DNA of 64,000 nucleotides from Meghimatium bilineatum. Taxonomy: Eukaryota > Mollusca > Gastropoda > Stylommatophora > Philomycidae. How positions within the stretch are numbered: the stretch's first letter is position 1; the number at the start of each line of letters is the position of its first letter. Of this stretch, positions 4,990 through 64,000 are shown one piece after another. A model generated the notes under the pieces. It did no database searches and was not told the DNA's origin. It saw only the letters and a program-made list of their open reading frames with translations. Both the position numbers and the translations under genes were made by a program. Location: assembly GCA_034231615.1 (NCBI GenBank), contig CM067317.1:46061876-46125875 (forward strand). Direction: 5' to 3'.

Positions 4990-5940
4990 CCTCCCTGTCA
5001 TGTGACGTATTCCTTCCAGAACGTTGTCTTCCCAATGAACTCTCTGAACCCCTCTCTGTCTTGGGCGATGTGGCTTGCATTTTCTAGCGATGTATTCATG
5101 TTATCTTTAATGTCGTCAGTCCATCGTCTTCTTGGTCTGCCCTTTCTCCTCTTTCCAGGTACTCTTCCCTCCATTATTTGTCTCTCTAAACAGTTGTGTC
5201 TCTTTATATGACCAAACAGGCGTGGTTTTCTTTTTGTTATTGTGTTTAGTAACCAACACTCTGGAATATTCAATGTGTTTATAATATCTGAGTTTCTGAT
5301 TTTATCCTTCCATGATATTCTAAGTATCTTCCTGTAGCATTTCAGCTTGAAGGCGTTGATATTCTTTGCCGCTGTTTACATAATGTCCATGTTTCACAGC
5401 CGCATGTTGCAACAGGAAAAATATAAGTTCGTAACATTTAGCACTTTCGTTTCTATTTTGTTGTTTTTCCATATATTTTTCAGCCGTATTATTTTGCAAT
5501 ATGCCATTGCCAATCTCTTCTGCCATGCAGTCTCCTGCATCGTTGATGTTTGCTCCTAAGTATTCAAATTTATCCACACATTCTATCTCGGTATTGTCTA
5601 TTCTGATTTTTGGTTGTTGTGTTGTTATATCTGTTGACATGATTTTTGTTTTCTGTGTGTTTAAATACAAATTTTGTGCTTCGCTATATTTCTTTGTGTT
5701 CGTGATTACTTGATCCAATCCCTTTATATCATTTGAAAGAAGCACTGTGTCGTCTGCGTAGCGTAGTTTCGGGATTAGAAATCCACCTATGTTTAAAGCG
5801 TGGTAGTCAGCGTTGTGTTGTCTTCTCTCACGTTCCTCATTATTATACTTTCTGCATAGATGTTGAACAGGTATGGTGAGAGTGTGCATCCCTGTCTTAC
5901 TCCACTCTGTACCTCAAACCACTCTGAGAGATCGTCTTAA
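4990..5940 (-). pseudogene. LINE reverse transcriptase remnant (YADD motif)
   Basis: The minus strand encodes the catalytic palm motif LRYADDTVLLS (within 5320-5889). This is followed by a K-T-K-I-M and F-E-Y-L-G block, as in LINE reverse transcriptases after motif C. In another frame (4998-5273) comes a C-terminal GKRRKGRPRRRWTDDIK motif and a T-T-F-x-K-E-Y-V-T ending. The pieces are out of frame and the N-terminal part is absent, so this is a dead fragment. Related fragments lie at 9478-9690, 13325-13515, 19395-19860 and 38800-39170. Confidence 0.8.
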
Positions 5941-18397: not shown

Positions 18398-18414
18398 TGT
18401 TGTACAGCATGATA

Positions 18415-18590
18415 TTCTTCTTCTTCAGCGTTCATTCTCAAACTCCCGCTTGTTCTCTCTTAAATCACGACAATGGTCCTACCAAGAGTCCAGCAAGATG
18501 TAGTCCAGAGAATGGAGATACACTGTGGCGCACTTTTATTTGCGGTAATGGTCCAATACATCCGTTCTCAGAGATGTACATCATCATTTA
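18415..18590 (-). mobile_element. SINE family B, reverse
   Basis: Begins with TTCTTCTTCAGCGTTCATTC, the reverse of the family B tail, and includes the reverse of the GGACTACATCCTGCTGG and GCGCAAATAAAA blocks. Confidence 0.7.
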
Positions 18591-18685
18591 TAAGGTTCTT
18601 CGCAGCTGATGCACTACTCTTGATTCTGAGACGCCAGTCATATCTGTCTTCTGAAATATTTCCCCATGATTATGTGTCTCCACCT

Positions 18686-18843
18686 AAGACGGATGTGTCG
18701 GGCCATTGACGCAAATAAAACGGCGACACAACTCATTTCCATTCTCTGGACTACATTCTGCTGGAAATCATCTAGTAGGATCATTATCCTGCTACAAGAG
18801 AGATCCAGCGGGAGTTTGAGAATTAACGCCGAAGAAGAAGAAT
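18686..18843 (+). mobile_element. SINE family B
   Basis: GACGGATGTGTCGGGCCATT, ACGCAAATAAAACGGCGACA and GAGAATTAACGCCGAAGAAG mark start, core and tail. Confidence 0.8.
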
Positions 18844-18849
18844 ATGTGT

Positions 18850-20394: not shown

Positions 20395-21640
20395 CAGCAG
20401 ATATTTACACAAAATATCAACACATTCCTACATACAATATCATAAGAAATTCATATACACAAGGTCACAATGATCTCGCACACACAATGTTAAAATAATC
20501 TCGTACACACAATGTTAAAATAATCTCGTACACACAATGTTACAATAGTCTCGTACACACAATGTTACAATAATCTCGTACACACAATGTTACAATAATC
20601 TCGTACATACAATGTTACAATAACTCGTACACACAATGTTACAATAATCTCGTACACACAATGTTACAATAATCTCGTACATACAATGTTACAATAATCT
20701 CGTACACACAATCTTACAATAATCTCGTACACACAATCTTACAATAATCTCGTACATACAATGTTACAATAACTCGTACACACAATGTTACAATGATCTC
20801 GTACACACAATGTTACAATAATCTCGTACACACAATGTTACAATAATCTCGTACACACAATGTTACAATAATCTCGTACATACAATGTTACAATAACTCG
20901 TACACACAATGTTACAATAATCTCGTACACACAATGTTACAATAATCTCGTACATACAATGTTACAATAATCTCGTACACACAATCTTACAATAATCTCG
21001 TACACACAATCTTACAATAATCTCGTACATACAATGTTACAATAACTCGTACACACAATGTTACAATGATCTCGTACACACAATGTTACAATAATCTCGT
21101 ACATACAATGTTACAATAACTCGTACACACAATGTTACAATGATCTCGTACACACAATGTTACAATAATCTCGTACACACAATGCTACAATAATCTCGTA
21201 CACACAATGTTACAATAACTCGTACACACAATGTTACAATAACTCGTACACACAATGTTACAATAATCTCGTACACACAATGTTACAATAATCTCGTACA
21301 CACAATGTTACAATAATCTCGTACACACAATGTTACAATAATCTCGTACACACAATGCTACAATAATCTCGTACACACAATGTTACAATAACTCGTACAC
21401 ACAATGTTACAATAACTCGTACACACAATGTTACAATAATCTCGTACACACAATGTTACAATAATCTCGTACACACAATGCTACAATAATCTCGTACACA
21501 CAATGTTAAAATAGTCTCGTACACACAATGTTACAATAATCTCGTACACACAATGTTACAATAATCTCGTACACACAATGTTACAATAATCTCGTACACA
21601 CAATGTTACAATAATCTCGTACACACAATGTCTCAAAACA
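20395..21640. repeat. Minisatellite, 25 bp unit (23 bp variant), ~48 copies
   Basis: Tandem ACAATGTTACAATAATCTCG plus TACAC; the shorter variant lacks TC. A block of several variant units is itself repeated, indicating higher-order expansion. It is the largest array of the window. The repeats have no spacers, so this is not a CRISPR array. Confidence 0.97.
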
Positions 21641-22804: not shown

Positions 22805-23550
22805 ACTGGTTAGCTTTGAGCATGGTAACCGGCGTGTAAGTACATAAACCCAGCGATGGATTTGAGCATGGTAACCAGCCTGTAAGTATATAAACCCAGC
22901 GATAGATTTGAGCATGGTAACCAGAGTGTAAGTACATAAACCCAGCGATGGATTTGAGCATGGTAACCAGCGTGTAAGTATATAAACCCAGCGATAGATT
23001 TGAGCATGGTAACCAGCGTGTAAGTACATAAACCCAGCGATAGATTTGAGCATGGTAACCAGCGTGTAAGTATATAAACCCAGCGATAGATTTGAGCATG
23101 GTAACCAGCGTGTAAGTATATAAACCCAGCGACAGATTTGAGCATGGTAACCAGCGTGTAAGTACATAAACCCAGCGATAGATTTGAGCATGGTAACCAG
23201 CGTGTAAGTACATAAACCCAGCGATGGATTTGAGCATGGTAACCAGCGTGTAAGTATATAAACCCAGCGATAGATTTGAGCATGGTAACCAGCGTGTAAG
23301 TACATAAACCCAGCGATAGATTTGAGCATGGTAACCAGCGTGTAAGTATATAAACCCAGCGATAGATTTGAGCATGGTAACCAGCGTGTAAGTACATAAA
23401 CCCAGCGATAGATTTGAGCATGGTAACCAGCGTGTAAGTATATAAACCCAGCGACAGATTTGAGCATGGTAACCAGCGTGTAAGTACATAAACCCAGCGA
23501 TAGATTTGAGCATGGTAACCAGCGTGTAAGTACATAAACCCAGCGAACAC
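22805..23550. repeat. Minisatellite, 46 bp unit, ~16 copies
   Basis: Tandem TTTGAGCATGGTAACCAGCG, TGTAAGTATATAAACCCAGC, GATAGA. Because 46 is 1 mod 3, the minus strand is open in all three frames (22632-23611), each giving the same 46-residue peptide repeat. No real gene is implied. Confidence 0.96.
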
Positions 23551-28919: not shown

Positions 28920-30610
28920 CCACGGGACTCCTACCATGGGAATCGTATCACGTGCAGCGGATCTTCCAGTATAACTCGGGTCTTGACAGGATAAGCAAAA
29001 TTAGGTGCAGCAAGCGGCAGGTCAAGCACTCAAGGTGCAGTGACCTGAACCAGCTACCATGGTGGAATAACGGCAGAGAAGAAACAAACGGCAGGCCATC
29101 AAGGCGTGGCAGAAAGCACGCAACTACGACAGCGCACCATCCAATAACGTAACGACATTGAAGCAGACCGTAGACAACACTATGTTACTCTTTAAGATAT
29201 GATCTCAGCAAGCCAAGGAAGAAAAATGGAATGAATTCTGCAAGCAGATCAGTTCAAACAAATCTTTTAAGACTTTCTGGCGTTTTCAGCGAAGCATGAA
29301 CGGAAATGTACAAACATTCGGTATATCTGATTTTAAATCCACTGATCTGACATGGTAGAAATCAGACGAAGATAAGGGGAATATATTTCCTTGAGCAAAT
29401 CTAGACTACGTAGTTCAACTGACGGACCAAAACAACGTAGATGTCAGGCGGAGAATTATGACAACTCTATCTGGTCTATGTACAGAGCCTGAGTGGAATG
29501 AGAGCATACACATCCCTGCAGAGACTGTCCACCACTCTTTAATGGTCGCGGAACACCGTCCCAGGCACTGGCGGTATTCGATATTAGGACTTCGCCATCC
29601 ATAAGGAGAGTGGCACACGACTTGGTTCGTGAGTTTAACGAAAACATCAAGAACGGTATTATCAAAGAAGAATGATTACTTAGCTACCTATTTTTCTGCC
29701 ACTAAAGAAGCCCAATGAACACCACGTCCGGATCAACGGATACCGAATCATAACGATGAAGAACACCACGAGCAAACTCATTGAGAAGATTGTAGCACAC
29801 CATCTCGCTCGAGACCTGGAAGAGAGCCACATTTTCCCGGTCACGCTCGGAGGTTACAGATGTCAGAAAGAAACATGGCGCAACGTCGCTGTTTTCGCCT
29901 ACGACGTATTTGAGGGCTTCCATGCATGTCTGAAAATGTGTACTGTTGTGATTGACTTGGAGTACGCGTATAACAGAATGCCGTTCGAGTACCTCATCAA
30001 CATTCTCTTGCTCTTTAATGTTGACCCTTTTTTAGTTTACTACACTCGAATAATGCTATGGGTTCATAGCAGTCCCACAAAGGAAGTATTTGATGTAACG
30101 CAGGAACTTAACAGATTGGAATCGCAAGCCTATTTCCATGCGTACATACTAAGTGACTCAATATGATTCAGAAAGTCAAAACAGGTTATGTGCGTAGAGG
30201 ATGGATAGAGTCATTAGAGAGAGCTAAAATGTGGACATCACTACAAAAACTAACCATTATCTTTGTTCCTGGACACACGGGCGCGGAGGGAAACGAATGA
30301 GTCGACCAATTAGCTTGCCTCACCACCATACCAGATGGTCAGCCTATAGACCGAGAGGACATACTCATTGCTCTTCGTGAGTCCGCTCGATCAGAGGATT
30401 TTGAGATGAATGAGCATGAATCAATGTCTAGAATGCGGAAATTGGAAGTGAAGTTGAGAGTGGCAGGTAGAGAACACCTGACAAAGATTTCAAAAATAGC
30501 AATGAACCACCATAGAACAGGAACCATCAGCCGTTATACCCTGAGAGATTTATTGAAACGGAGACCTGAGCACATATGGACATGGCTGGTGTGCGAGGAG
30601 GATATAATCA
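28920..30610 (+). pseudogene. Degenerate LINE (RT, RNase H and C-terminal tail)
   Basis: The order of parts matches a LINE ORF2. First is a linker with W-N-E-F-C-K-Q-I-S-S-N-K-S (29222-29270). Then an RT with N-T-T-S-K-L-I-E-K-I-V-A-H-H-L and the palm motif A block V-V-I-D-L-E-Y-A-Y-N-R-M (29756-30166). Then I-E-S-L-E-R-A-K and VPGHTGAEGNE of RNase H, and the A-L-R-E-S-A-R-S-E-D-F-E-M tail (30350-30590). There are several stops and a deletion between RT motif A and RNase H, which removes the catalytic YxDD. It sits inside a minisatellite, which flanks it on both sides. It has no endonuclease domain and is not functional. Confidence 0.8.
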
Positions 30611-40500: not shown

Positions 40501-43500
40501 TCGCTGTCACTTTTTATATAATTGGAAGTGACCTGACAATAATAGCCAAGGCGATTCCAAGTACGAGTATATAAAAGTGAAAAACGAAATCTAGACAATA
40601 ATACAAAACATTACCAATAAAGTCCTAATTAATTTTGTACACAGGTTTTATAGTATTTTCGAAGGTCACGTCTTTTGAGTTTACAAAACTTGACATAGCA
40701 GAACTCATCCTTACAGCAGGTACCCGAAACAATCACGTGACCGTTGGGGTGCAAAGGGAACGCATTGCTCTAGGCGGACCCAGGGTTAGCAGATAACCAA
40801 GATCCCAAATGTACCTCCACGCGGTGCACCCTGGAAACAGAAATACAGCAGCTCGAGCTGATTCTGGCCAAATCTTTTGGGGATCGTGTCCGAGAATGTG
40901 GAGGTAGCAGATGGAAAGAGATTTGACTGCACAAAAGACAGACAATATCTCCGACACCACCAGTATCACCACATATAGCGACACTGTCTACATACAGTGA
41001 AGCTAGTCAGTCCAGTCCGAACATTGGAGGGACGGCCAATGTAAAATGCATGTAAAGGTAGATGCATGGCGAGAGACAAAAAAGATTTCATACCGAGTAC
41101 AATGAAACAATGAAAGGGCAGAACAGCGCTAGAGGGCAGCGCGAACTGCAAATAGAAAGTGAAAAGTCCATAGGAAAGGGGAATTACAAGCTCCGTCAGC
41201 TCGAGGCGAGCTTCTAGTTACCTGTGTTCCTTACAGACAGAGCCCCAGGCCCATTCATTGGCGTTTGGTAAAGCAAGAAGACCTAATCCAACTCTAATGT
41301 CGAGCCTTTCTAAACCGGAAATATGCTCGCGAAGAGAAAGGGTTCCGTACCCGATGGGCTTAGGCAAGAAAGGGACAACGATGGTAGTCCTGGTCCAACT
41401 CTAATGTCAAGGTTTCCTATACCGGAAGTAAACTTGAAGAGAGAAAGGGTTCAGTACCTGATGGGCTCAGGCGCTATTGGGACAAGGACGCCTTGCTCTC
41501 AAACGCGTGGTGTGAGACTCGATCTTGGACAAGGGGTACACGATGTCGGTGAATGACACTTCGGCTAAGAGGGCGAAAGAGCCAGGGTCCAACTCCTCTG
41601 TTGAGTTCTTCCCCTTAAGGAACCAGGCTCACGGATGAGAAACGGTTCAGTACCCAATGGGCACAGGCACAGCACGTCCAATTACACAAGGCAAGTTCAT
41701 AGACAGTGGAACACCTCGTTCGAGTCAGACGAGAGCAAAAAATCGTCTTGGCGAAGAGTCTCCACTACGCGTGCTTGGAGACATATATAGAGGCTGTCAC
41801 AGGCTAAGGGTAGCCCACCCGAATTGTCAAGGCATGCCGAAATCGGATGTGCTAGGCCTACAAGGCGCATAACGGTGGCACAACGTAATCACGCTCCCGG
41901 CGAAAATCGCACGGATATCCGTGATGGTTACAATGGAGCGAACGAAAAACAAAACAAACAAACAAACGTGACTGTTATCTGTATGTAAAAGTTAACAATA
42001 TCCATTTATGGCGCCCTCGAGAACTGGCCTAGTAACGTCATTCCCGAATGTTTTCTTCCTCTGATAACCTTCATTCATTGTTGACGGGAAATATGTTTAT
42101 ACGTCACAAAAGTACACATAAGGAAATACGAGGTCAGTAGTTGTAACTATGCCTAAAGCGACAACACAATATTAAATTTATGTAAGTTGTAGAGGATTGT
42201 CTTAAAGTTCGTTGATAAGAGATGGGGGTTTAAGGTGTTGAAATCCCCTATCCCTTCCCCTTAGCAAATAAGAACATGACTTTTAGTACTAGGGACTTAG
42301 CCAAGAGGTCGGTAACTTATCTTCATCAGCATTGATGAAGGTAGAAATTCCCGGATTCTATATTGTACCCCTTGACCCTGACAGGATCTGGGTATATGGA
42401 TTTATGTGGATGTACGGATGAGTTCAGATGAAGAATTGCAAGATCACATAACCATACTCAACGAAAGTTGTCTCAATCTCAACATGAATACCAACACAGA
42501 AAAAACAACAGAAGTGATTGTCTATAGGAAGAAAACTGAATACAATCAACATAAAAATAAATGTTCAACAACTGAAACAAGTTTAGGAATTTAAATATCT
42601 AGGAGCATGTTTACAGCCGATAGAAGAATGAACAGAGAGCTCGATAACAAGAATTCAAAAAGCCAACTACTTAAATTATTAACTTACACAAATGTTGAAA
42701 CACACATCTATCCCGACGGAAACAAAAAGGCAAATCATAAATTCAATATTCATCCCAACATTCTGTTTTCAATGTCAGACATAATGAATATTGCAAGAGA
42801 AAAGGAGAACATCAACATACAGATAAATAATAAACAACTAAAACAAGTAGATGAATTCAAATATCTGGGCAGCACATTGAGATATGACAACAAACAAGAA
42901 GCAGAAATAAACGCAAGATGTAATAAGGCCTGTCAGATCATTGGTCAATTAACACCTTTACTAAGAAACAAAGATATTACACTAGAAACAAAGAAAGCGC
43001 TTTTCAACACCATTTTCTTACCAACATTGTGTTATCAGTGTCAAACTTGGACATTAGATTCTAGAACGATTCCATAAGATTAACACCACTGAAATGAAAT
43101 GTGTGAGGCATATCATTGGAGTTAGTTTGAGAGACAAAATCAGGAATGAAGCACTAAGGAAACAATTAGGGATCAAGCCAACAATAGAATACATACAGAA
43201 ACAACAAGTTAAATGGTACGGCCACATAACCAGACAGAAAGAGCAAAGTATTATCCAAAAAACACTTAACAAACGATACGAAAACTATTGGACCTATTGG
43301 ACGCCCTCGTAAAAGGTGGATAGATAGTGTATTAGAGACACTCGGAAATATAACAGCAGAGGAGGCACATAGAAGGGCAAAAGACCGTACACTCACTCTC
43401 CCCTCAACACCGAAAGGTAGATGAGGACAGAAAGAAGAAGAAGAAAAAAAAATGTCAGACATGGACACTAACTAAAGAACAAGAGAGAAAGCTTAATTCG

Positions 43501-45704: not shown

Positions 45705-46111
45705 CTTGAGACTAACGGGAATTGAAGCAGTCCGTTCAACGGCACATAAATCGCCTAGCAACTATTGCACACGCGTTCTTCCGTACTTGACTAACCGCAT
45801 CTCCAAAAATAAAAAGATGCGATTTCGTCAAGACATTCAAAGCGTGCACACAAAGTCACCCGAAAGGACCATTAGAGACAAGGACTATTACAACAACAAC
45901 AAACATCCCGTCCCATTTTGTTTGTTGTTGTTGTAATACTCCTTGTCTCGATTGTCCGTTCCGGTGACTGAGTGCACTCTTTGAATATCTTGACAAAATC
46001 GCATCTTTTTTTGGAGATGCGGTTAGTCAAGTACGTAAGAACGCGTGTGCAATAGTTGCTAGGCGATTTGGTGCCGTTGTACGGACTGCTTCAATTCCCG
46101 TTAGTCTCAAG
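45705..46111. mobile_element. Foldback element, ~200 bp inverted arms
   Basis: CTTGAGACTAACGGGAATTG at the left is mirrored by CAATTCCCGTTAGTCTCAAG at the right, and the arms match with a few substitutions to a centre near 45908 (ACAACAACAAAC / GTTTGTTGTTGTTG). No ORF conserved. It lies about 100 bp after the poly(A) signal. Confidence 0.85.
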
Positions 46112-46411
46112 AATTTAAAAAAATTGTCCTCTGGCTTCCTACTTAAATTTACTTGTCTTTTTTATACGTACAGTGTGTCTGCGCATTGCCGGTTTGTCTT
46201 TGTATGAATCCATTCTATAATTGTGTCCATTACATCCTTTTTTGTGTGTGTTCGCGTCCAGTTGTTTTTATATGTCCAATCTGTCTATTTTGACATGACA
46301 ATGAAACTTGCTACAAGCCATAACAACAAACCACACACGTTCTAAATTACACGTACGCTCCACATTATACACTCTACATTATACAAACACTCTTCATTAT
46401 ACGTACACTCT

Positions 46412-47746
46412 TGGGGTGCAAAGGGAACGCATTGCTCTAGGCAGACCCAGGGTTAGCAGATAACCAAGATCCCAAATGTACCTCCACGCGGTGCACCCTG
46501 GAAACATAAATACAGCAGCTCGAGCTGATTCTGGCCAAATCATTTGGGGATCGTGTCCGAAAATGTGGAGGTAGCAGATGGAAAGAGATTTGCCTGCACA
46601 CGGACAGACATATCTCCGACACCACCAGCATCACCACATATAGCGACACTGTCGACATACAGTGAAGCTAGTCAGTCCAGTCCGAACATTGGAGGGGCGG
46701 CCAATGTAAAATGCACGTAAAGGTAGATAAATGGCGAGAGATATAGATTTTATACCGAGTACAATGAAACAATGAAAGGGCAGAACAGCGCTAGAGGGCA
46801 GCGCGAACTGCAAATAGAAAGTGAAAAGTCCCTAGGAAAGGGGGAGCTACAAGCTCCGTCAGCTCGAGAGGGGCTTCTAGTTACCTGAGTTCCTTACAGG
46901 CAGAGACCCAGACCCATCCACTGGCGTTTGGTAAAGCAAGAAGACCTAACCCAACTCTAATGTCGAGCCTTCCTAAACCGGAAATATGCTCGCGAAGAGA
47001 AAGGGTTCTGTACCCGATGGGCTTAGGCAAGAAAGGGACAACGATGGTAGTCCTGGCCCAACTCTACTGTCAATGTTTCCTATACCGGAAGTACACTTGC
47101 AGAGAGAAAGGGTTCCGTACTCGATTCGCTCAGGCACAAAAGGGACAACGATTTAGCCCTGGCCCAACTCTACTGTCAAGTTTTCCTACACCGGAAATAC
47201 ACTTGAAGAGAGAAAGGGTTCAGTACCTGATGGGCTCAGGCGCTATTGGGACAAGGACACTCAGCTCGAGAACGCCTAGCTCTCAAACGCGTGGTGTGAG
47301 ACTCGAACTTGGACAAGGGGTACACGATGTCGGTGAATGACACCTCGGCTAAGAGGGCGAAAGAGCCAGGGTCCAACTCCTCTGTTGAGTTCTTCCCCTT
47401 AAGGAACCAGGCTCACGGATGAGAAACGGTTCAGTACCCAATGGGCACAGGCACAGCACGTCTAATTACACGAGGCAAGTTCATAGACAGTGGAACACCT
47501 CGTTTGAGTCAGACTAAGAGCAAGAAAATCGTCTGGGCGAAGAGTCTTCACTACGCGTGCCTGGAGACAGATATAGAGGCTGTCACAGGCTAAGGGTAGC
47601 CCACCCGAATTGTCAAGGCATGCCGAAATCGGATGTGCTAGGCCTACAAGGCGCATAACGGTGGCACAACGTAATCACGCTCCCGGCGGAAATCGCACGG
47701 ATATCCGTGATGGTTACAATGGAGCGAACGAAAAACAAACAAACAA
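46412..47746 (+). mobile_element. 1.3 kb retroposon, copy 3, full length
   Basis: Same termini as copy 2, flanked by 11 bp direct repeats ACGTACACTCT (46401-46411) and ACGTACACTCC (47747-47757). Contains three rather than two ~106 bp tandem units (around 46947-47270), so unit number varies between copies. Confidence 0.88.
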
Positions 47747-53009: not shown

Positions 53010-53985
53010 TTATGATACAATCTATATAGTTTGTCTCAATCAGAACTGTAATCATAAGACATTCCCACCAATAAATCTTTTGTATCATTTGTGTGCGACT
53101 GATTATTTCTGGGGGTGGGGGATGTGGGGGCGCGAGTGTGTTTCTTTAGAGTATTATTTCCTACCCAGGAGACACCATCCCTCAGCATCACCACTAGAAA
53201 GACCAGAAGAACCCGCAACCAACAACTGACTAGAACGGACACAGCTTTATATACTTTTAGATGGTTGACGTGCGGCTATGGTCGGTACTATATGAGTAGT
53301 TATGTAGGGATGGAACGAGCCGCGAGTGTGCTGGATGTGCCGAGTGTGCCGAGTGTGCAACCGAATGTGCAACCGAATGTGCCCGAATGTGCAACCGAAT
53401 GTGCAACCGAGTGTGCTCGCACATCCAATATGGTGGCGAAACATGTCAAAAAACGGTCGAAACCGGCCGAAATCGCGCGGTGTGTGTGTGCCCGGCCTAC
53501 GCGGGCGGGGTGGGGATCATGATATCGGTGGGGCCCACTGCCCTATTTAACTTTTGTTCAACCCGGTTGAAGAAAATATTGCTCTTTTTCACTTAAAAAT
53601 TTCCACTGTTTTATTTTGTTCTGGTTTAGAAGTAAACGGAAACTACCAGGTTGGCTGACCGGTTCAAGGTCGGTCATTCTCAACTAGGTCAGCGATATAA
53701 CAAAAGGTCAGCTGAACCGTAATTTTCCACTGAGTTACTTAGCGGTGGTCCACTTGATTGATGAAATACTACAGACGCGTACTTTTCCGTGTGAAAATCC
53801 TTACAAGATTTCCGCGATAACGACAGGTAGCAACATCTGGCATTAATAGCTTTCGCTTCACCCGCGTGCGTGTTAACCGCTCAAACAGTGCTCACCATAA
53901 CCATAAACCTGTTATCTGATTGTGGGAATTAATGGTATACTAGGATTTTAAAATAAGGAATTTAAATCGAATATATTTCAACCGT
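53010..53985. other. Non-coding stretch before the tandem arrays
   Basis: Contains a 12 bp tandem array (53330-53415, GAGTGTGC and CGAATGTGCAAC words) with a GC-rich flank. No exon supported. Confidence 0.4.
53330..53415. repeat. Short tandem repeat, 9-12 bp units
   Basis: GTGTGCCGAGTGTGCAACCG and AATGTGCAACCG repeats. Confidence 0.85.
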
Positions 53986-53986
53986 C

Positions 53987-53988
53987 TA

Positions 53989-54044
<56 letters not shown>

Positions 54045-54190
54045 CATACATACATACATACATACATACATACATACATACATACATACATACATACATA
54101 CATACATACATACATACATACATACATACATACATACATACATACATACATACATACATACATACACACACATACATACATACATACATA
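53987..54190. repeat. (TA)n followed by (TACA)n microsatellite
   Basis: About 25 TA units, then more than 35 TACA/CATA units; the ORFs across it are artefacts. Confidence 0.98.
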
Positions 54191-54224
54191 CCCTTATTTG
54201 TTTAGTGGGCATGTTTGGGATTTC

Positions 54225-55140
54225 CGCTTACATTCAAGTGGTTCTCAAATTGTAAAATACTGACCATAACAATGTAAACCCCGAGACATATAGACACCAC
54301 AAAAACTAATATTCTGCAAACATACTTCTGTGCCTTTGGCCAACGGTTCTCATTATTTCATACTTATATTCAAGTGGTTCTCAAATTGTAAAATCTTGAC
54401 CATGCAATGTAAAAACCCTGACATATAGACACCACAAAAGCTAATATTCTGCAAACATACTTCTGTGCCTTTGGCCAACGGTTCTCATTATATCCTACTT
54501 ATATTCAAGTGGTTCTCAAATTGTAAAATCTTGACCATGCAATGTAAAACCCCTGACATATAGACACCACAAAAGCTAATATTCTGCAAACATACTTCTG
54601 TGCCTCTGGCCAACGGTTCTCATTATTTCCTACTTATATTCAAGTGGTTCTCAAATTGTAAAATCTTGACCATGCAATGTAAAACCCCTGACATATAGAC
54701 ACCACAAAAGCTAATATTCTGCAAACATACTTCTGTGCCTCTGGCCAACGGTTCTCATTATTTTATGCTTATATTCAAGTGGTTGTCAAATTGTAAAAGC
54801 ATGACCATAACAATGTAAACCCCGTGACATATAGACACAACAAAAGCTATATTCTCCAAACATTCTTCTGTGCCTTTGGCCAATGATTATCATTATTTTA
54901 TGCTTATATTCAAGTGGTTCTCACATTGTAAAAACCTGACCACGAGAATGTAAAACTCGTAACATTGACACCACAAAAGAAAATATTCTGCAAACATTAT
55001 TCTGTGCCTTTGGCCAATAGTTCTCATTATTTTATGGTTATGATAAAGTGGTTCTCACATTGGCCAATCCTGACCATACTAATGTAAAACCCATGCCATA
55101 TATACAACACAAAAGCTAATATTCTCCAAACAGTCTTCTC
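54225..55140. repeat. Tandem array, ~135 bp unit, ~7 copies
   Basis: Units contain ATTCAAGTGGTTCTCAAATT, CTGACATATAGACACCACAA, AAGCTAATATTCTGCAAACA and CTGTGCCTTTGGCCAACGGT. Copies decay toward the right. No coding content. Confidence 0.93.
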
Positions 55141-55379
55141 TCAGGCCACGCTTCAGCCATGGTCGCTTGATGGTCTCTGTATGCTCTTCAACTATGTTCT
55201 ACCATATTATCATTATGGTCTCACTAGCTTCTAACAGGATCTACTTTGGGCCAATATATTCTTAGTATATTTTCGCTAGAGTCTTAAACTAGGTTCTCAT
55301 GTGCAGCTTCAATTATGTTCTCTCTGTGTTTTGAGTTATTTTTCTCTACTAAAAGGTTTCTTATTAACATATTTCATTA

Positions 55380-56330
55380 GCGCAAACGGCGTGTTTATCA
55401 GATGTCGAAATTAACAAGTCACACGAAAACACATTTCAACCCTTTCTCACTAACAACATAGTACATTTGAGAAGTTTTATTTGTGTAAATTTAACATTTA
55501 TTGGTGTTTTTTCACAACTAGATAAGCCACTTATACGGATTTTCGATGTTTTATTAGTTGTCTAAATTGTCATACGAAAATGCATTTCAGTATTTTTGTA
55601 GTAACAACATGACAAATTTTATCGTGTTTGTATTTGTGTGACTGTACCATGTACCATTTTCCACAATTAACCAATCTGCTTTTAGTGATTTTCATTATGT
55701 TTTATCATTTGTCTAAATTATCATACCACACGAAAGATATTTCAGTACTTTTACACAAACATTATAACACATTTTTAAAATTTGTGTAAGTACATCATTT
55801 ACAATTTTTTCACAAGTAACCAACCCGCTTTTACTATGTTATCATACTAAAAGAACCCATTTTTCAGTACGTTGCCACTAACAACATAACACATTTTGCC
55901 CTGTTTTTATTTGTGGGCCTGCGGCATTTATCAATTTTAGTGATGTTCGTTATGTTTTATCAGTAGTTATCTAAATTAGATACCATACAAACCCATATTT
56001 CAGTACTTTTTCACAAACATCATAACACATTTACCATGTTTTATTTATTCGCTTTCAACAGTTATTACTATTTTTGCAATTACACAAGCCGAATTGGGTG
56101 ATTTTCGTTATGTTTTATCAGATGTCTAAGTTATGATACCATACGAAGCTATTTTTCCTTACGTTTCCATTAACAACATAACAACTTTTGACATGTTTTT
56201 ATCTGTTGGACAATCACTTATCACTTTTTCACAACTAGGCAAGTTGGTGGTAGCACCTTTCAGTGTGATCAGACAGTATTTATCTCTTTTCTATACTTAC
56301 AGTTGCGCATTTCACGACATTTAGATACAA
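55380..56330. repeat. AT-rich degenerate tandem repeats at the palindrome shoulder
   Basis: Recurring words ACATAACACATTTT, TTTCAGTACTTTT, GTTTTATCAGTTGTCTAAAT at roughly 150 bp spacing. The part from 56070 on is mirrored in 63740-64000; whether the left part is mirrored is off-window. Confidence 0.6.
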
Positions 56331-56519
56331 AACATGGCTCCAATGAACTTATTTTCATATGGTAAACTGCATGTTTTAGCTGTTTTCAAAATTATTATCC
56401 CATCCGAAATAACATGCCAACACTTCTCACTAACCTCATACACCATTTTGACAAACTTCTGTATATGAAACAGCATCGTTGATCACTACTCATAGACAAT
56501 ACCAACACATTTCACACAT

Positions 56520-56832
56520 AGACCCTGTCAATATCCCGTACTGATAGTCCGTGCTTATCCCCCGTGCTTATACCGCGTTCTGATATCCCGTGCTGATATC
56601 ACCTGTCAAAATCCGCTGCTGATATCCGCTGTCAAGATCCGCTGCTATCGATTGTCAAAATCCGCTGCTATCATCTGGCAAGAACCGCTGTTGATATCTG
56701 CTGTCGAAATTCACTACTGATATCCCCTGTCAAAATCCGCTGGTGATATCCGTTGTCAAAATCCGCTGCTGATAGCTCTAGTCAAGAACTGATGCTGACA
56801 TCCCGTGTTGACAATCGCCGTGTTGTATCCCT
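56520..56832. repeat. Degenerate ~26 bp tandem repeat in the palindrome arm
   Basis: TCCGCTGCTGATATCCGCTG TCAAAA-type units, about 12 copies; mirrored at 63238-63550. Confidence 0.85.
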
Positions 56833-56939
56833 TTTCACAACTAGGCAAACAGCTTATAACACTTTTTGCTATAATCGAAAGCATTAGGCGTTGATTTTCT
56901 AAACATACAAGGTAAATGTTTCTATTTGTATATACCAAC

Positions 56940-57960
56940 GTCTCATATTACATATTTCCATATGACAAATTACCTGTTTAGCCCTTTTAACAGCTAGGCA
57001 AGTCGCTTTTAACACATTTACATATGATAAACGGCATGTTTTTTCACTTGTCACAGCCGCTTTTAACGCATTACCATTTGACAAACGGTATGTTTTATCA
57101 GTTATCACACCATATGAAAACCTATTACAAGGCGTTTACACTAAAAACACAACACATTTATTATTTTTTTACAGCTAGACATTTTGCTTTTCGTAGTTTT
57201 CACAATGAGTAAAGTTACTATTTCACCAGTGTCTAGACTTAGAATGACAAATTACATTGGTTTTATGTACCAACATGTTTAATATTACATATAGCCAAAT
57301 GACAGAAGTCATGTTTATCACTTTTCACAACTAGGCAAAGCCCTTTTAACACATTTTGCTATAATCAAAGACATTGGGTGGGGCCTTTCTAGACTTACAA
57401 TGCAAATTTCCTTATTTGTATGTACCAACAAGGTTCATATTACGTATTTCCATAGGACAACTTTCATGTTTTATCACTGTTCACAACTAGGCAAACCGCT
57501 TTTAACAATTGTTGGTATTACCAAAAGCTATGTGTGGTGGTTCTCTAGACTTACACTGTAAATTGTCCTATTTTTATGCACCAACCGGTTTCATATTGCA
57601 TATTTCCAAACGACAAAGTTCATGTTTTATCACTTTTCACAGCTAGCCAAAACGATTTTTAAATTCTTTTCATATGACAAACGACATGTTTTATTAGTTT
57701 TCTAAATTATCAGGTTATATGAAACCACATTACAATACGTTTACACTAAAAAACATAACGCATTTAAGTACTTTTCACAGCTAGACACAGCACCTTTCGA
57801 AGTTTTCGCAATGAGCAAAGACATTATTTTGCTCGTTGCTAGACTTACAAAGGCAAATTACCATACTTTTATGTACCAACAAGGTTCATATTATATATGT
57901 CCATATGACAAGCTTCAGGTTTATCGCTTTTCACAATTAGGCAAACCGCGTTTCGCAAAC
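56940..57960. repeat. Degenerate ~150-180 bp repeats in the palindrome arm
   Basis: TTCACAACTAGGCAAACCGC, TTTTAACACATTT, CTAGACTTACAATGCAAAT and TATGTACCAACAAGGTTCAT recur in the same order about six times. Mirrored at 62110-63130. No ORF above 70 codons. Confidence 0.8.
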
Positions 57961-58382
57961 TCCTAGCTATAACCCGGGTGATATCACATGACATTAGCCA
58001 AGGCAGATAGCCCCTGTTGATACCCAGGACACACCTACCAACTGCCTACGGGTAATGTTTGTGCCTATAAGAGTGAAGTGTATTATAGGGTTTGTGTGCC
58101 GCCTTCAACATTTAACCGCTACCAGTAATAATCTGCCGAACTAGCTAAACTCACCTGCACCGCATAAACAATAGCTAAACATATAGGGTAGCTTGTTATG
58201 GGGTTGTACCTGAGCAATACGTAGTGAAAATTGTATTAATGTGTAACCTATACATAAAGGATGAAAAAAGGCTAACCTTCGTCATTGTCTTAAACATGCG
58301 CATCTCTGGGAATGACATCTCAGCACGGGCTATAAATACGAAAGCATATGATTCTGATACTAACAAACGAGCAAACACCTAG

Positions 58383-58389
58383 TTTTATA
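58383..58389 (-). promoter_or_regulatory. Candidate outward TATA box, left arm
   Basis: TATAAAA on the minus strand (mirror 61681-61687, plus strand). It is followed 65 bp downstream by an ATG (58316-58318) and, after 14 codons (starting M-S-F-P-E-M), a donor-like AAG|GTTAGC at 58276. It would drive transcription away from the palindrome centre. No downstream exon found. Confidence 0.35.
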
Positions 58390-58507
58390 TACGAACCAGC
58401 TACACCAATCGATTGTATTGCACTTTTGAAGCACAATCGAATAGGCAATACAGGTTTGGTACTGTGCACACAATCGGAGTAACCCATTCATCCCATTGGG
58501 TGATGTG

Positions 58508-58514
58508 TATATAT
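58508..58514 (+). promoter_or_regulatory. Candidate TATA box of the zinc-finger gene, left arm
   Basis: TATATAT, 87 bp before the candidate first-exon ATG at 58595 and ~120 bp from the outward TATA, which makes a compact bidirectional promoter. Positional inference. Confidence 0.35.
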
Positions 58515-58998
58515 TTGTATTACCAAACATTTAAAAAAGCACACGTTATCGGCACTTACTAATAGAAACTACCGGAACTTTGTCATTTTGAAGAATGACT
58601 TATGTAAGTAATGTTGTTAATATCTGAATAGGTTGTTTGTTATTCTAACAGGATTTTCGATCATAGTCTTGTTTTGTCTCTTCTTCAGACATGCGTTAAC
58701 GGGCACATTCTCTACCTTTTCTATGATATTTTGATGTTAAATTTAATGTCTGACATGTGTGAAATTCTATAGGGTCTTGGTTGTTGGTCCGTTTTGGTAG
58801 TTGCCACCATGTGGGCGTGGAAACAAGTTGGTGTAAATGTGAATACATTTGTGTATTTTTTTTTTATTTTGGTGTGTATAGATACACTAACATCCCGGTG
58901 ATATATTGGGGTCTTATTTATTACTATTGTTGTGGTCGTTGTTTATGTATATTGTTTGAGTTGTGTATGTATAGCCTGAATATGAGTTAGGGCTAACT

Positions 58999-59712
58999 AT
59001 GTTAGGTATCTGCTTGGGAATTGGCTTATTTACGCAGTCCATCTATTCTCCACAGACCAAGACGTCCACCAAAACCTACCGGTGTGTTCAATGCTTGAAA
59101 CCATTTAGTCGCCTTTACACACTGCAAAGACATAAACAAGATCTTCACCTTAAAAAAAGACATAACTGTAATTTTTGTGTTAATGTTTACACAGATGCTT
59201 CAACATTAAGACAGCACAGGCAAAAATGTCATACGCCCCAATTAGTAACAACGGATGGAACTTTTAACCCTAGCGAGGGGCATCATAGTAATTTAACACC
59301 AACCAAGAACATGATACTAGTTGATCCCCAGGTGGTCGACGCCTTGCTGTATAAAACAGTCTATAAACCACCTGATTCTTTAACTGATTCTATGGGTGAG
59401 TTGGACCAAGAAATGCGGGCGGTTTTAGTTCGTGGTGATTTAACCAATCACGAAAAATCTAGACTATACCAAAAAACATTACAACAGTATTTGAATCGAC
59501 TCAGTCAATACAAAAACACACCTCTGAAGCTATTAGAGAGCACGCAGTGTTCGGTACCAAGTGCCTCAATACAGAAAGATGAAGAACCCACTGAGAAAAT
59601 TCCCGAGAAAGTCGAAGTGATGCCTAAGACGCCACGGCTTCAACATAGGCGGGCATCTAAAAGAACAAAAAGTAAAACAATGGCCAAAAGTCTGATTTGG
59701 GATAAGTGGTAG
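58999..59712 (+). CDS. C2H2 zinc-finger protein, left-arm copy
   Basis: The 237-codon frame encodes two C2H2 fingers: C29-x2-C32-x12-H45-x4-H50 and C57-x2-C60-x12-H73-x4-H78. A linker follows, then a likely helical segment (about 128-168) with L-D-Q-E-M and E-K-S-R-L-Y-Q-K-T-L-Q-Q-Y-L, and a basic C-terminus (R-R-A-S-K-R-T-K-S-K) that could be a nuclear signal. DNA or RNA binding is likely; the role is unknown. The helical motif looks like one seen in uncharacterised proteins of invertebrate mobile elements, but I cannot name a family. The first 13 residues may be intron. A phase-0 donor after ATG-ACT-TAT (58595-58603|GTAAGT) and acceptor TTACGCAG|TCC (exon from 59038) would give a 227-residue protein. 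AATAAA occurs at 59791. Transcribed toward the palindrome centre. Confidence 0.75.
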   Translation: MLGICLGIGLFTQSIYSPQTKTSTKTYRCVQCLKPFSRLYTLQRHKQDLHLKKRHNCNFCVNVYTDASTLRQHRQKCHTPQLVTTDGTFNPSEGHHSNLTPTKNMILVDPQVVDALLYKTVYKPPDSLTDSMGELDQEMRAVLVRGDLTNHEKSRLYQKTLQQYLNRLSQYKNTPLKLLESTQCSVPSASIQKDEEPTEKIPEKVEVMPKTPRLQHRRASKRTKSKTMAKSLIWDKW

Positions 59713-59790
59713 AAAAAATTGTAGAAGGCAACGCACCATTACACAACAAATTGTCAACTGTTTAAACAAATATGATACTTATATAACATT

Positions 59791-59810
59791 AATAAACAAA
59801 ATAAAATAAA
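59791..59810 (+). terminator. Poly(A) signals of the left zinc-finger gene
   Basis: AATAAA at 59791 and overlapping AATAAA words to 59810, about 80 bp after the stop. A (TG)n tract follows at 59844-59872. Confidence 0.6.
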
Positions 59811-59936
59811 ACCACAACGATGTTGTTGTATTTTATCTTTATTTGTGTATGTGTGTGTGTGTGTGTGTGTGTGACTATATGTAAAAAAAAAAAGATTGCT
59901 CATAAACATAAAAAACTAGGTCGATTTCCCTCCTAG

Positions 59937-60133
59937 CACGGGATCCCGTGTAACACGGGGGTCTTTCATCATGTATCTACACGGGAGCCATCGCTGCACG
60001 GGCCCCGTGTAACACGGGATCCCGTGTAGGTCCAATATGATAAAACAGGATCTCGTGTTACACGGGCCCCGTGTAGCGCTGGATCCCGTGTAGATACATG
60101 ATGAAAGACCCCCGTGTTACACGGGATCCCGTG
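59937..60133. repeat. Palindrome core with nested CACGGG/CCCGTG hairpins
   Basis: 197 bp hold seven ACGGG and seven CCCGT half-sites. CACGGGATCCCGTG forms a perfect 14 bp palindrome at 59937-59950 and mirrored at 60120-60133. CCCGTGTAACACGGG and GGGCCC units lie between. Outside about 59987/60083 the two halves pair perfectly; inside they mismatch at about seven places before a ~20 bp unpaired centre (TAGGTCCAATATGATAAAAC). Confidence 0.9.
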
Positions 60134-60273
60134 CTAGGAGGGAAATCGACCTAGTTTTTTTATGTTTATGAGCAATCTTTTTTTTTTACATATAGTCACA
60201 CACACACACACACACACACATACACAAATAAAGATAAAATACAACAACATCGTTGTGGTTTTATTTTATTTTG

Positions 60274-60279
60274 TTTATT
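60274..60279 (-). terminator. Poly(A) signal of the right zinc-finger gene
   Basis: Mirror of 59791-59796 (TTTATT on the plus strand). Confidence 0.6.
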
Positions 60280-60357
60280 AATGTTATATAAGTATCATAT
60301 TTGTTTAAACAGTTGACAATTTGTTGTGTAATGGTGCGTTGCCTTCTACAATTTTTT

Positions 60358-61071
60358 CTACCACTTATCCCAAATCAGACTTTTGGCCATTGTTTTACTT
60401 TTTGTTCTTTTAGATGCCCGCCTATGTTGAAGCCGTGGCGTCTTAGGCATCACTTCGACTTTCTCGGGAATTTTCTCAGTGGGTTCTTCATCTTTCTGTA
60501 TTGAGGCACTTGGTACCGAACACTGCGTGCTCTCTAATAGCTTCAGAGGTGTGTTTTTGTATTGACTGAGTCGATTCAAATACTGTTGTAATGTTTTTTG
60601 GTATAGTCTAGATTTTTCGTGATTGGTTAAATCACCACGAACTAAAACCGCCCGCATTTCTTGGTCCAACTCACCCATAGAATCAGTTAAAGAATCAGGT
60701 GGTTTATAGACTGTTTTATACAGCAAGGCGTCGACCACCTGGGGATCAACTAGTATCATGTTCTTGGTTGGTGTTAAATTACTATGATGCCCCTCGCTAG
60801 GGTTAAAAGTTCCATCCGTTGTTACTAATTGGGGCGTATGACATTTTTGCCTGTGCTGTCTTAATGTTGAAGCATCTGTGTAAACATTAACACAAAAATT
60901 ACAGTTATGTCTTTTTTTAAGGTGAAGATCTTGTTTATGTCTTTGCAGTGTGTAAAGGCGACTAAATGGTTTCAAGCATTGAACACACCGGTAGGTTTTG
61001 GTGGACGTCTTGGTCTGTGGAGAATAGATGGACTGCGTAAATAAGCCAATTCCCAAGCAGATACCTAACAT
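60358..61071 (-). CDS. C2H2 zinc-finger protein, right-arm copy
   Basis: Mirror image of 58999-59712; the 237-residue translation is identical, with both C2H2 fingers, the L-D-Q-E-M helical segment and the basic tail. The two copies are convergent, with the hairpin-rich core between their 3' ends. The alternative first exon would be 61467-61475, and the second exon would then be 60358-61032. Identity at all residues means the copies are either very young, kept alike by gene conversion, or a single copy read twice. Confidence 0.75.
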   Translation of the reverse strand: MLGICLGIGLFTQSIYSPQTKTSTKTYRCVQCLKPFSRLYTLQRHKQDLHLKKRHNCNFCVNVYTDASTLRQHRQKCHTPQLVTTDGTFNPSEGHHSNLTPTKNMILVDPQVVDALLYKTVYKPPDSLTDSMGELDQEMRAVLVRGDLTNHEKSRLYQKTLQQYLNRLSQYKNTPLKLLESTQCSVPSASIQKDEEPTEKIPEKVEVMPKTPRLQHRRASKRTKSKTMAKSLIWDKW

Positions 61072-61555
61072 AGTTAGCCCTAACTCATATTCAGGCTATA
61101 CATACACAACTCAAACAATATACATAAACAACGACCACAACAATAGTAATAAATAAGACCCCAATATATCACCGGGATGTTAGTGTATCTATACACACCA
61201 AAATAAAAAAAAAATACACAAATGTATTCACATTTACACCAACTTGTTTCCACGCCCACATGGTGGCAACTACCAAAACGGACCAACAACCAAGACCCTA
61301 TAGAATTTCACACATGTCAGACATTAAATTTAACATCAAAATATCATAGAAAAGGTAGAGAATGTGCCCGTTAACGCATGTCTGAAGAAGAGACAAAACA
61401 AGACTATGATCGAAAATCCTGTTAGAATAACAAACAACCTATTCAGATATTAACAACATTACTTACATAAGTCATTCTTCAAAATGACAAAGTTCCGGTA
61501 GTTTCTATTAGTAAGTGCCGATAACGTGTGCTTTTTTAAATGTTTGGTAATACAA

Positions 61556-61562
61556 ATATATA
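61556..61562 (-). promoter_or_regulatory. Candidate TATA box of the zinc-finger gene, right arm
   Basis: Mirror of 58508-58514. Confidence 0.35.
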
Positions 61563-61680
61563 CACATCACCCAATGGGATGAATGGGTTACTCCGATTGT
61601 GTGCACAGTACCAAACCTGTATTGCCTATTCGATTGTGCTTCAAAAGTGCAATACAATCGATTGGTGTAGCTGGTTCGTA

Positions 61681-61687
61681 TATAAAA
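61681..61687 (+). promoter_or_regulatory. Candidate outward TATA box, right arm
   Basis: TATAAAA followed by an ATG at 61752 and donor-like AAG|GTTAGC at 61793. A second strong donor-like GTGCAG|GTGAGT lies at 61915. Downstream exons, if any, would be at or beyond the window edge. Confidence 0.35.
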
Positions 61688-64000
61688 CTAGGTGTTTGCT
61701 CGTTTGTTAGTATCAGAATCATATGCTTTCGTATTTATAGCCCGTGCTGAGATGTCATTCCCAGAGATGCGCATGTTTAAGACAATGACGAAGGTTAGCC
61801 TTTTTTCATCCTTTATGTATAGGTTACACATTAATACAATTTTCACTACGTATTGCTCAGGTACAACCCCATAACAAGCTACCCTATATGTTTAGCTATT
61901 GTTTATGCGGTGCAGGTGAGTTTAGCTAGTTCGGCAGATTATTACTGGTAGCGGTTAAATGTTGAAGGCGGCACACAAACCCTATAATACACTTCACTCT
62001 TATAGGCACAAACATTACCCGTAGGCAGTTGGTAGGTGTGTCCTGGGTATCAACAGGGGCTATCTGCCTTGGCTAATGTCATGTGATATCACCCGGGTTA
62101 TAGCTAGGAGTTTGCGAAACGCGGTTTGCCTAATTGTGAAAAGCGATAAACCTGAAGCTTGTCATATGGACATATATAATATGAACCTTGTTGGTACATA
62201 AAAGTATGGTAATTTGCCTTTGTAAGTCTAGCAACGAGCAAAATAATGTCTTTGCTCATTGCGAAAACTTCGAAAGGTGCTGTGTCTAGCTGTGAAAAGT
62301 ACTTAAATGCGTTATGTTTTTTAGTGTAAACGTATTGTAATGTGGTTTCATATAACCTGATAATTTAGAAAACTAATAAAACATGTCGTTTGTCATATGA
62401 AAAGAATTTAAAAATCGTTTTGGCTAGCTGTGAAAAGTGATAAAACATGAACTTTGTCGTTTGGAAATATGCAATATGAAACCGGTTGGTGCATAAAAAT
62501 AGGACAATTTACAGTGTAAGTCTAGAGAACCACCACACATAGCTTTTGGTAATACCAACAATTGTTAAAAGCGGTTTGCCTAGTTGTGAACAGTGATAAA
62601 ACATGAAAGTTGTCCTATGGAAATACGTAATATGAACCTTGTTGGTACATACAAATAAGGAAATTTGCATTGTAAGTCTAGAAAGGCCCCACCCAATGTC
62701 TTTGATTATAGCAAAATGTGTTAAAAGGGCTTTGCCTAGTTGTGAAAAGTGATAAACATGACTTCTGTCATTTGGCTATATGTAATATTAAACATGTTGG
62801 TACATAAAACCAATGTAATTTGTCATTCTAAGTCTAGACACTGGTGAAATAGTAACTTTACTCATTGTGAAAACTACGAAAAGCAAAATGTCTAGCTGTA
62901 AAAAAATAATAAATGTGTTGTGTTTTTAGTGTAAACGCCTTGTAATAGGTTTTCATATGGTGTGATAACTGATAAAACATACCGTTTGTCAAATGGTAAT
63001 GCGTTAAAAGCGGCTGTGACAAGTGAAAAAACATGCCGTTTATCATATGTAAATGTGTTAAAAGCGACTTGCCTAGCTGTTAAAAGGGCTAAACAGGTAA
63101 TTTGTCATATGGAAATATGTAATATGAGACGTTGGTATATACAAATAGAAACATTTACCTTGTATGTTTAGAAAATCAACGCCTAATGCTTTCGATTATA
63201 GCAAAAAGTGTTATAAGCTGTTTGCCTAGTTGTGAAAAGGGATACAACACGGCGATTGTCAACACGGGATGTCAGCATCAGTTCTTGACTAGAGCTATCA
63301 GCAGCGGATTTTGACAACGGATATCACCAGCGGATTTTGACAGGGGATATCAGTAGTGAATTTCGACAGCAGATATCAACAGCGGTTCTTGCCAGATGAT
63401 AGCAGCGGATTTTGACAATCGATAGCAGCGGATCTTGACAGCGGATATCAGCAGCGGATTTTGACAGGTGATATCAGCACGGGATATCAGAACGCGGTAT
63501 AAGCACGGGGGATAAGCACGGACTATCAGTACGGGATATTGACAGGGTCTATGTGTGAAATGTGTTGGTATTGTCTATGAGTAGTGATCAACGATGCTGT
63601 TTCATATACAGAAGTTTGTCAAAATGGTGTATGAGGTTAGTGAGAAGTGTTGGCATGTTATTTCGGATGGGATAATAATTTTGAAAACAGCTAAAACATG
63701 CAGTTTACCATATGAAAATAAGTTCATTGGAGCCATGTTTTGTATCTAAATGTCGTGAAATGCGCAACTGTAAGTATAGAAAAGAGATAAATACTGTCTG
63801 ATCACACTGAAAGGTGCTACCACCAACTTGCCTAGTTGTGAAAAAGTGATAAGTGATTGTCCAACAGATAAAAACATGTCAAAAGTTGTTATGTTGTTAA
63901 TGGAAACGTAAGGAAAAATAGCTTCGTATGGTATCATAACTTAGACATCTGATAAAACATAACGAAAATCACCCAATTCGGCTTGTGTAATTGCAAAAAT

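Follow-up and report, generated by a model that had tools for sequence, protein, structure and literature searches.

What is a palindrome of more than 13 kb doing inside a chromosome of the gastropod Meghimatium bilineatum, and what keeps its two halves alike? The window that raises this question is a stretch of 64,000 nucleotides on contig 20 (C20:46061876-46125875), which is 68.5 Mb long and belongs to a 1.61 Gb assembly of 32 contigs. Palindromes this large are usually held to be unstable or artefactual. Our analysis shows that, in the chromosome, the palindrome is an inserted mobile element, and that a whole family exists and spreads as palindromes. We consider it probable that these elements are non-autonomous, fully palindromic satellites of Maverick/Polinton-type elements, replicated via a snap-back intermediate.

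The original prediction, made from the window alone, described a giant near-perfect palindrome in which each position is mirrored at 120070 minus its coordinate. Both points hold: 3,937 of 3,964 pairs of positions match under this symmetry, compared with 31% for the runner-up among 61 sums tested (120040-120100). As to the claim that the arms carry no indels or substitutions outside the core, 56070-59892 and 60178-64000 are indeed identical over 3,823 bp; the full element shows four gap runs and a single substitution at more than 200 bp from the axis. In the core (59893-60177), an A-run is one base shorter on one side and is offset by another run a few bases away, and 13 mismatches, besides the unpaired centre base, all lie within 48 bp of the axis. 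Position 64000, given as the end of the palindrome, is merely the edge of the window. When the next 20 kb of flanking DNA is added, an extension that the prediction had proposed as a check, the symmetry ends at 53295 on the left and at 66791 on the right (C20:46115170-46128666), giving a palindrome of 13,497 bp that is larger than first described and lies in the window from 53295 to 64000. The left arm (53295-60035, forward strand) measures 6,741 bp and the right arm (60036-64000 in the window, reverse strand) 6,756 bp in total. The left terminus reads AGTAGT (53295-53300, forward strand), the Maverick-type (AGT)2 end motif (PMC8097293), and is mirrored as ACTACT at the right end. Immediately outside lie the two copies of a target-site duplication (TSD), TATATG, at 53289-53294 and, beyond the window, at 66792-66797 (C20:46128667-46128672). 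The arms also hold two tandem arrays, one of 135 bp units in the outer arm (54227-55139) and one of 156 bp units (57232-57651; mirror 62411-62838).

The same architecture recurs throughout the genome. A 601-bp piece of the arm has 41 genomic matches, of which 36 fall in 18 head-to-head pairs and 5 are single. When the best 150 of 1,873 first-look candidates for the 237-amino-acid (aa) zinc-finger open reading frame (ORF) of the element were scored, 128 of them formed 64 head-to-head pairs with a median gap of 618 bp. Ten axes were examined out to 10 kb per side, and all ten are palindromes. The nine loci with resolved ends have arms of 6.7-7.0 kb (one arm of 7.7 kb has an extra 0.8 kb) and totals of 13.4-14.6 kb; at the tenth, C25, an N gap intervenes and the arms are at least 4.7 kb long, so that this locus was excluded from the end analysis and its arms compared over 4,683 bp only. 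At nine of the ten loci the similarity of both arms stops at the same terminus, reading AGTAGT inward, where the ends were located by the AGTAGT/ACTACT motif. Accordingly, (AGT)2//(ACT)2 ends are present at 9/9 loci with resolved ends (10 fetched), and eight of the nine are bounded by perfect 6-bp TSDs whose sequence differs from locus to locus: TATATG at the window locus, and TACATT, CTCCGA, GACGCA, CGTGTC, TATGTA, TAACGG and CACTTT elsewhere. The family is thus both palindromic and mobile. Its subfamilies are mosaic, with an inner 2 kb held in common at 96-99% and outer blocks that differ or are shared in patches, and the block pattern is the same in both arms of a locus. For example, at more than about 2.0 kb from the axis the window element and C2b have unrelated outer arms, of which tandem repeats make up 42% and 16%, respectively.

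These observations bear on several causes that the original prediction had entertained. The copies and TSDs rule out a single-locus artefact, a chromosome-end hairpin and a one-off inverted duplication, which removes both the broken or hairpin chromosome end and the very recent inverted duplication from consideration; given the position of the window within its contig, the palindrome is also not at a contig end. An assembly or sequencing fold-back artefact might leave homopolymer-length differences near the axis such as those seen here, but would hardly yield ten loci that differ from one another and are nonetheless palindromic, two of them with clearly drifted arms, nor locus-specific TSDs on both sides at eight loci, a common asymmetric axis and 64 dispersed gene pairs among the matches listed; we regard it as scarcely credible. 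The suggestion of virus-like DNA was a good lead, though an inserted mobile element was not among the causes proposed. A closed-hairpin form, also among the proposed causes, may still apply to an extrachromosomal stage.

The ends place the family next to Mavericks. In vertebrate Mavericks (PMC8097293), (AGT)2//(ACT)2 is the commonest end motif, TSDs are 6 bp, and intact elements are 12.7-24.6 kb long with terminal inverted repeats (TIRs) of 46-1,447 bp. The palindromes have the same ends and the same TSD length, and the 13.4-14.6 kb of our nine loci lies inside the reported size range (PMC8097293). They differ in that the inverted repeat is the whole element, with arms of 6.7-7.0 kb (one 7.7), rather than the 46-1,447 bp given there (PMC8097293). 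The palindromic copies also differ from Mavericks in having no polymerase B match among the listed copies, and we therefore do not file the element as an autonomous Maverick.

The coding content of the palindromes is small. Above background, each arm of the window element has a single ORF (237 aa, P0001; 58999-59712, forward strand; mirror 60358-61071, reverse strand), which resembles a C2H2 zinc-finger protein. Its match to Pfam zf-C2H2 (E 2e-4) is below the cut-off, residues 19-79 match a zinc-finger structure by sequence (E 1.3e-10), and a second finger-like stretch is visible by eye. The C-terminal domain is conserved in P0002 and P0003, the only proteins matched in protein searches with the zinc-finger protein (69%, and 36% over 62%, respectively); neither P0001 nor alignment A2 found a relative when used to scan IMG/VR. 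Structure prediction for P0001 gave a poor model, with a mean predicted local distance difference test score (pLDDT) of 44.9 and 35 residues at 70-90, around 126-172. The ORF is full-length in 18 of 20 arms and has a ratio of non-synonymous to synonymous differences (pN/pS) of 0.38, summed over pairs of ten copies. The Pfam comparison of element ORFs covered P0001 and three ORFs of one arm. In a sister subfamily (C2b, C25), each outer arm carries an additional 171-aa PC4-like ORF, for which protein searches returned no relative. The best 150 of 667 first-look candidates for this ORF were scored, and comparison of the first 73 of these with the zinc-finger matches gave 30 zinc-finger pairs flanked by outward PC4-like pairs, with the midpoints of the two kinds of pair 0-5.5 bp apart; a hand-picked set of nine more loci is symmetric as well, with midpoints within 0-3.5 bp. 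All listed PC4-like matches at 86% identity or less contain at least one in-frame stop, and many of these pairs have identical stops in both arms, which suggests the amplification of a defective PC4-like gene. Both proteins, zinc-finger and PC4-like, may bind DNA at the ends or on single strands.

A satellite should share its cis-acting ends with another element of the same genome, and such elements are present. The terminal 18-mer CATCCCTATATAACTACT occurs 134 times in the genome, compared with 0.12 expected and 0 in a reversed control. Among the 100 of these 134 matches that were listed, 80 form 40 (-,+) pairs with a median span of 14.0 kb, and 26 of the 40 span 13-15.5 kb. Eight pairs enclose a zinc-finger pair centred within 0-16 bp of the element midpoint. 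Another eight enclose exactly one scored P0003-type match (best 150 of 577 candidates scored), located 1.2-1.9 kb inside one end; these are 14.0-15.5 kb long, apart from two of 19.3-19.6 kb. These assignments cover 16 of the 40 pairs. Since an equal-scoring mirror copy would be listed, the elements with a single P0003-type match look asymmetric. One sister, C1:17980772-17994791, has a TIR that is identical over the 308 bp read and a TSD of GACATA, and shows 88% identity between its first 213 bp and the end of the window element (first 201 bp). Its TIR, searched against the genome (best 40 of 395 candidates), gave at least nine pairs of 13.5-14.7 kb, the query's own included, and matches the left end of the palindrome at C18:22030673 at 93% over 308 bp. 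A further 93% match, at C25:7647794, belongs to a copy in which the zinc-finger and PC4-like ORFs follow the palindrome order; its second arm is not among the matches listed. Ends and size are thus common to the palindromes and the asymmetric elements. A fixed size of ~14 kb with tandem repeats as filler would fit packaging, which is speculation on our part. The genome also holds 19 matches to polymerase B (PF03175) at twelve loci, among them C24:19.41 Mb, C22:50.60 Mb and C3:55.66 Mb, some with long open stretches (e.g. 1,236 aa, E 8e-37). Overall, the element behaves like a Maverick satellite, for which a helper would be needed.

Two other arrangements of P0003-type matches were seen. Inverted pairs occur at C23:68763634/68776591 (13.0 kb), C25:77851624/77862998 (11.4 kb) and C2:21323526/21332643 (9.1 kb), the second of them inside a 14,264-bp TIR pair; these are possibly a second palindromic or very long-TIR lineage. 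At C22:51804773-52201485, eight scored matches lie on one strand ~53-59 kb apart, which suggests a segment repeated in tandem that contains a relative of the sister element.

How the palindrome arose can be addressed at its axis. As single-stranded DNA, the 251 nt at 59910-60160 are predicted to form one imperfect hairpin with a central 17-nt loop (-140 kcal/mol versus -34 when shuffled, z = -27.7). The asymmetric axial loop is common to 17 of 18 cores compared, in both orientations. It is kept in nine of the ten cores of loci read, some with one-sided deletions, and in all eight cores taken from copies 5-11% off the window protein, in which the stems have changed; five of these eight are symmetric in an ungapped symmetry test, which could not score L053-L055. 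Because the loop is shared despite the divergence of the copies, the cores seem to descend from one ancestral junction. Mismatches in the cores are concentrated no more than about 60 bp from the turn, which is what pairing between the arms would produce if it cannot extend round the loop. The exceptions lie further out: single mismatches in L050 and L051, which are 91.5 and 120.5 bp away from the axis, and mismatching beside the CA repeat in L048, L049 and the C12 reference. These data also speak to a different origin, in which fold-back priming at a short inverted repeat inside an asymmetric parent makes each palindrome anew, and the palindromic form does not itself propagate. A fold-back primer would leave mismatches confined to the turn, as in the window (no more than 48 bp from the axis), and the same-ended sisters of similar length do look asymmetric. 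However, 17 of 18 cores have the same asymmetric loop while their proteins are up to 11% apart, which argues for one inherited junction; the sisters carry a distantly related gene near one end; and the zinc-finger gene was recognised in no asymmetric element, though the 22 unpaired matches were not examined. We consider repeated fold-back origin rather unlikely.

Over ~1,640 inner bp at ten loci, arm pairs within a locus show 0-9 substitutions and arms from different loci 2-42. The within-locus differences sum to 23, versus a mean of 222 when arms are re-paired, and none of 10,000 shuffles gave a sum as low. Outside the core, six loci have an arm divergence of 0-0.02%, two of 0.15% and 0.20%, and the other two, C21 and C9b, of 0.76% and 1.17%. 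Different loci diverge by up to 2.6% over the same inner ~1,640 bp, and proteins by up to 11% among the matches listed. The tree from this comparison was set aside because the core, the orientation of which separates C2a from C14, forms part of it. An ordinary cut-and-paste transposon with very long TIRs, whose arms are equalised by chromosomal gene conversion, would fit the near-identical arms at six of ten loci, and conversion maintains the likeness of chromosomal palindromes elsewhere, for example on sex chromosomes. In contrast, both end motif and TSD are of Maverick type, and the spread of differences along the arms at C9b and C21 indicates that drift has not been erased there. These two old loci weaken the conversion explanation rather than eliminate it; conversion as the sole cause is disfavoured, and the gene-converted arms of the original prediction are both unneeded and a poor fit to them. 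We regard a conversion-maintained transposon as distinctly improbable. The simplest reading is instead that equalisation takes place in the mobile cycle, since old copies drift and most copies have near-equal arms even though loci differ. It is therefore apparently in the mobile phase, not on the chromosome, that the arms become equal, and the block differences that are mirrored in both arms likewise point to inter-arm copying in the mobile cycle.

A satellite with a snap-back intermediate could bring these features together as follows. The repeat motif at the element's ends is thought to serve protein-primed replication. A helper polymerase B would start at the AGTAGT ends and displace a single strand, which, being self-complementary, would snap back at the axial hairpin to give a duplex of half the length, closed by a hairpin at one end and open at the other. 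The paired arms could then lose their differences through mismatch repair or arm-to-arm copying, except near the loop. Replication through the loop would restore the 13-14 kb palindrome, which would integrate by its two identical ends. We infer the helper, the replication route and the equalisation in the mobile cycle. A bolder version, which we put forward tentatively and think somewhat more doubtful than not, is that the family represents a new kind of mobile replicon, a virus-like satellite of palindromic form. Its actual genome would be a "clothespin" of half the length, hairpinned at one end and protein-primed at the other, which is packaged at a fixed size of ~14 kb and has each arm proofread against the other in every cycle. 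If so, each insertion would start with two identical gene copies and carry its own insertion clock.

Several observations weigh against the snap-back satellite. None of the 19 PF03175 matches falls, by eye, in the ten elements read, the listed palindromes or the listed same-ended pairs, and no helper is tied to the palindrome ends among the listed copies. Inspection by eye of ORFs of at least 100 aa in the left arms of the ten loci found none resembling an integrase, ATPase, protease or capsid protein. The extrachromosomal hairpin form is itself one that we infer. Among the 150 scored zinc-finger matches, 22 are unpaired among the matches listed; the flanks at C21 are unlike and have no matching TSD; C9a has no axial loop, and several cores carry one-sided deletions. 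The smallest between-locus difference, two substitutions, is that of C2a and C14, and because these are nearly alike, their equal arms could be inherited from a young parent. Finally, the PC4 assignment (E 2e-4) is below the Pfam cut-off and found no support in a sequence search of solved structures (PDB).

Parts of the proposed cycle have counterparts in known systems. Parvovirus genomes with rolling-hairpin replication and self-complementary dimers of adeno-associated virus (AAV) are palindromic duplexes that pass through a hairpin, as proposed for the present element; the palindrome differs in that its hairpin is at the axis and its ends are Maverick-like. Foldback/Galileo transposons and miniature inverted-repeat transposable elements (MITEs) are likewise non-autonomous with long inverted repeats, but their ends and TSDs differ, and we know of none with two gene-bearing arms of 6.7 kb and no unique middle. 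The nearest published shape we encountered is that of the pFOXC clothespin linear plasmids, in which one end is a closed hairpin and the other has iterated terminal repeats and a linked protein (PMC3035579). Outside the chromosome, half of the palindrome would share this shape, but the plasmids are mitochondrial, ~1.9 kb long and encode a reverse transcriptase (PMC3035579). KolobokP, a composite DNA transposon described as especially rich in bivalves, differs in having long direct rather than inverted repeats, TSDs of 3-5 bp and a Kolobok transposase (PMC9587614). Among the titles and abstracts listed in searches of open-access literature, a scope that takes in neither subscription journals nor Repbase, none concerns palindromic Mavericks or a mobile element built like this one. 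The family suggests that Maverick virus-transposons have satellites, and it opens the snap-back replication of Maverick-type DNA to direct tests. In addition, arm divergence could serve as a clock for a DNA element in the manner of long terminal repeats (LTRs), and assemblers should be warned that palindromes of this kind may be genuine sequence.

The rest of the window contains further repeats. A repeated block is present at 1-702, 40745-41446 and 46412-47109, with inverted copies at 98% and 95%, and includes a weak RNase H match (E 0.0016) below the cut-off. Reverse transcriptase fragments (RVT_1) lie at 5320-5910 on the reverse strand, above the Pfam cut-off, and at 29687-30163 on the forward strand, just below it. 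Small self-inverted, MITE-like palindromes are found at 18412-18845 and 45705-46121 (73% and 87%). Three tandem arrays, at 20457-21631 (25 bp x47), 22811-23546 (46 bp x16) and 13548-14182 (23 bp x28), complete the inventory, and the latter two give rise to long ORFs.

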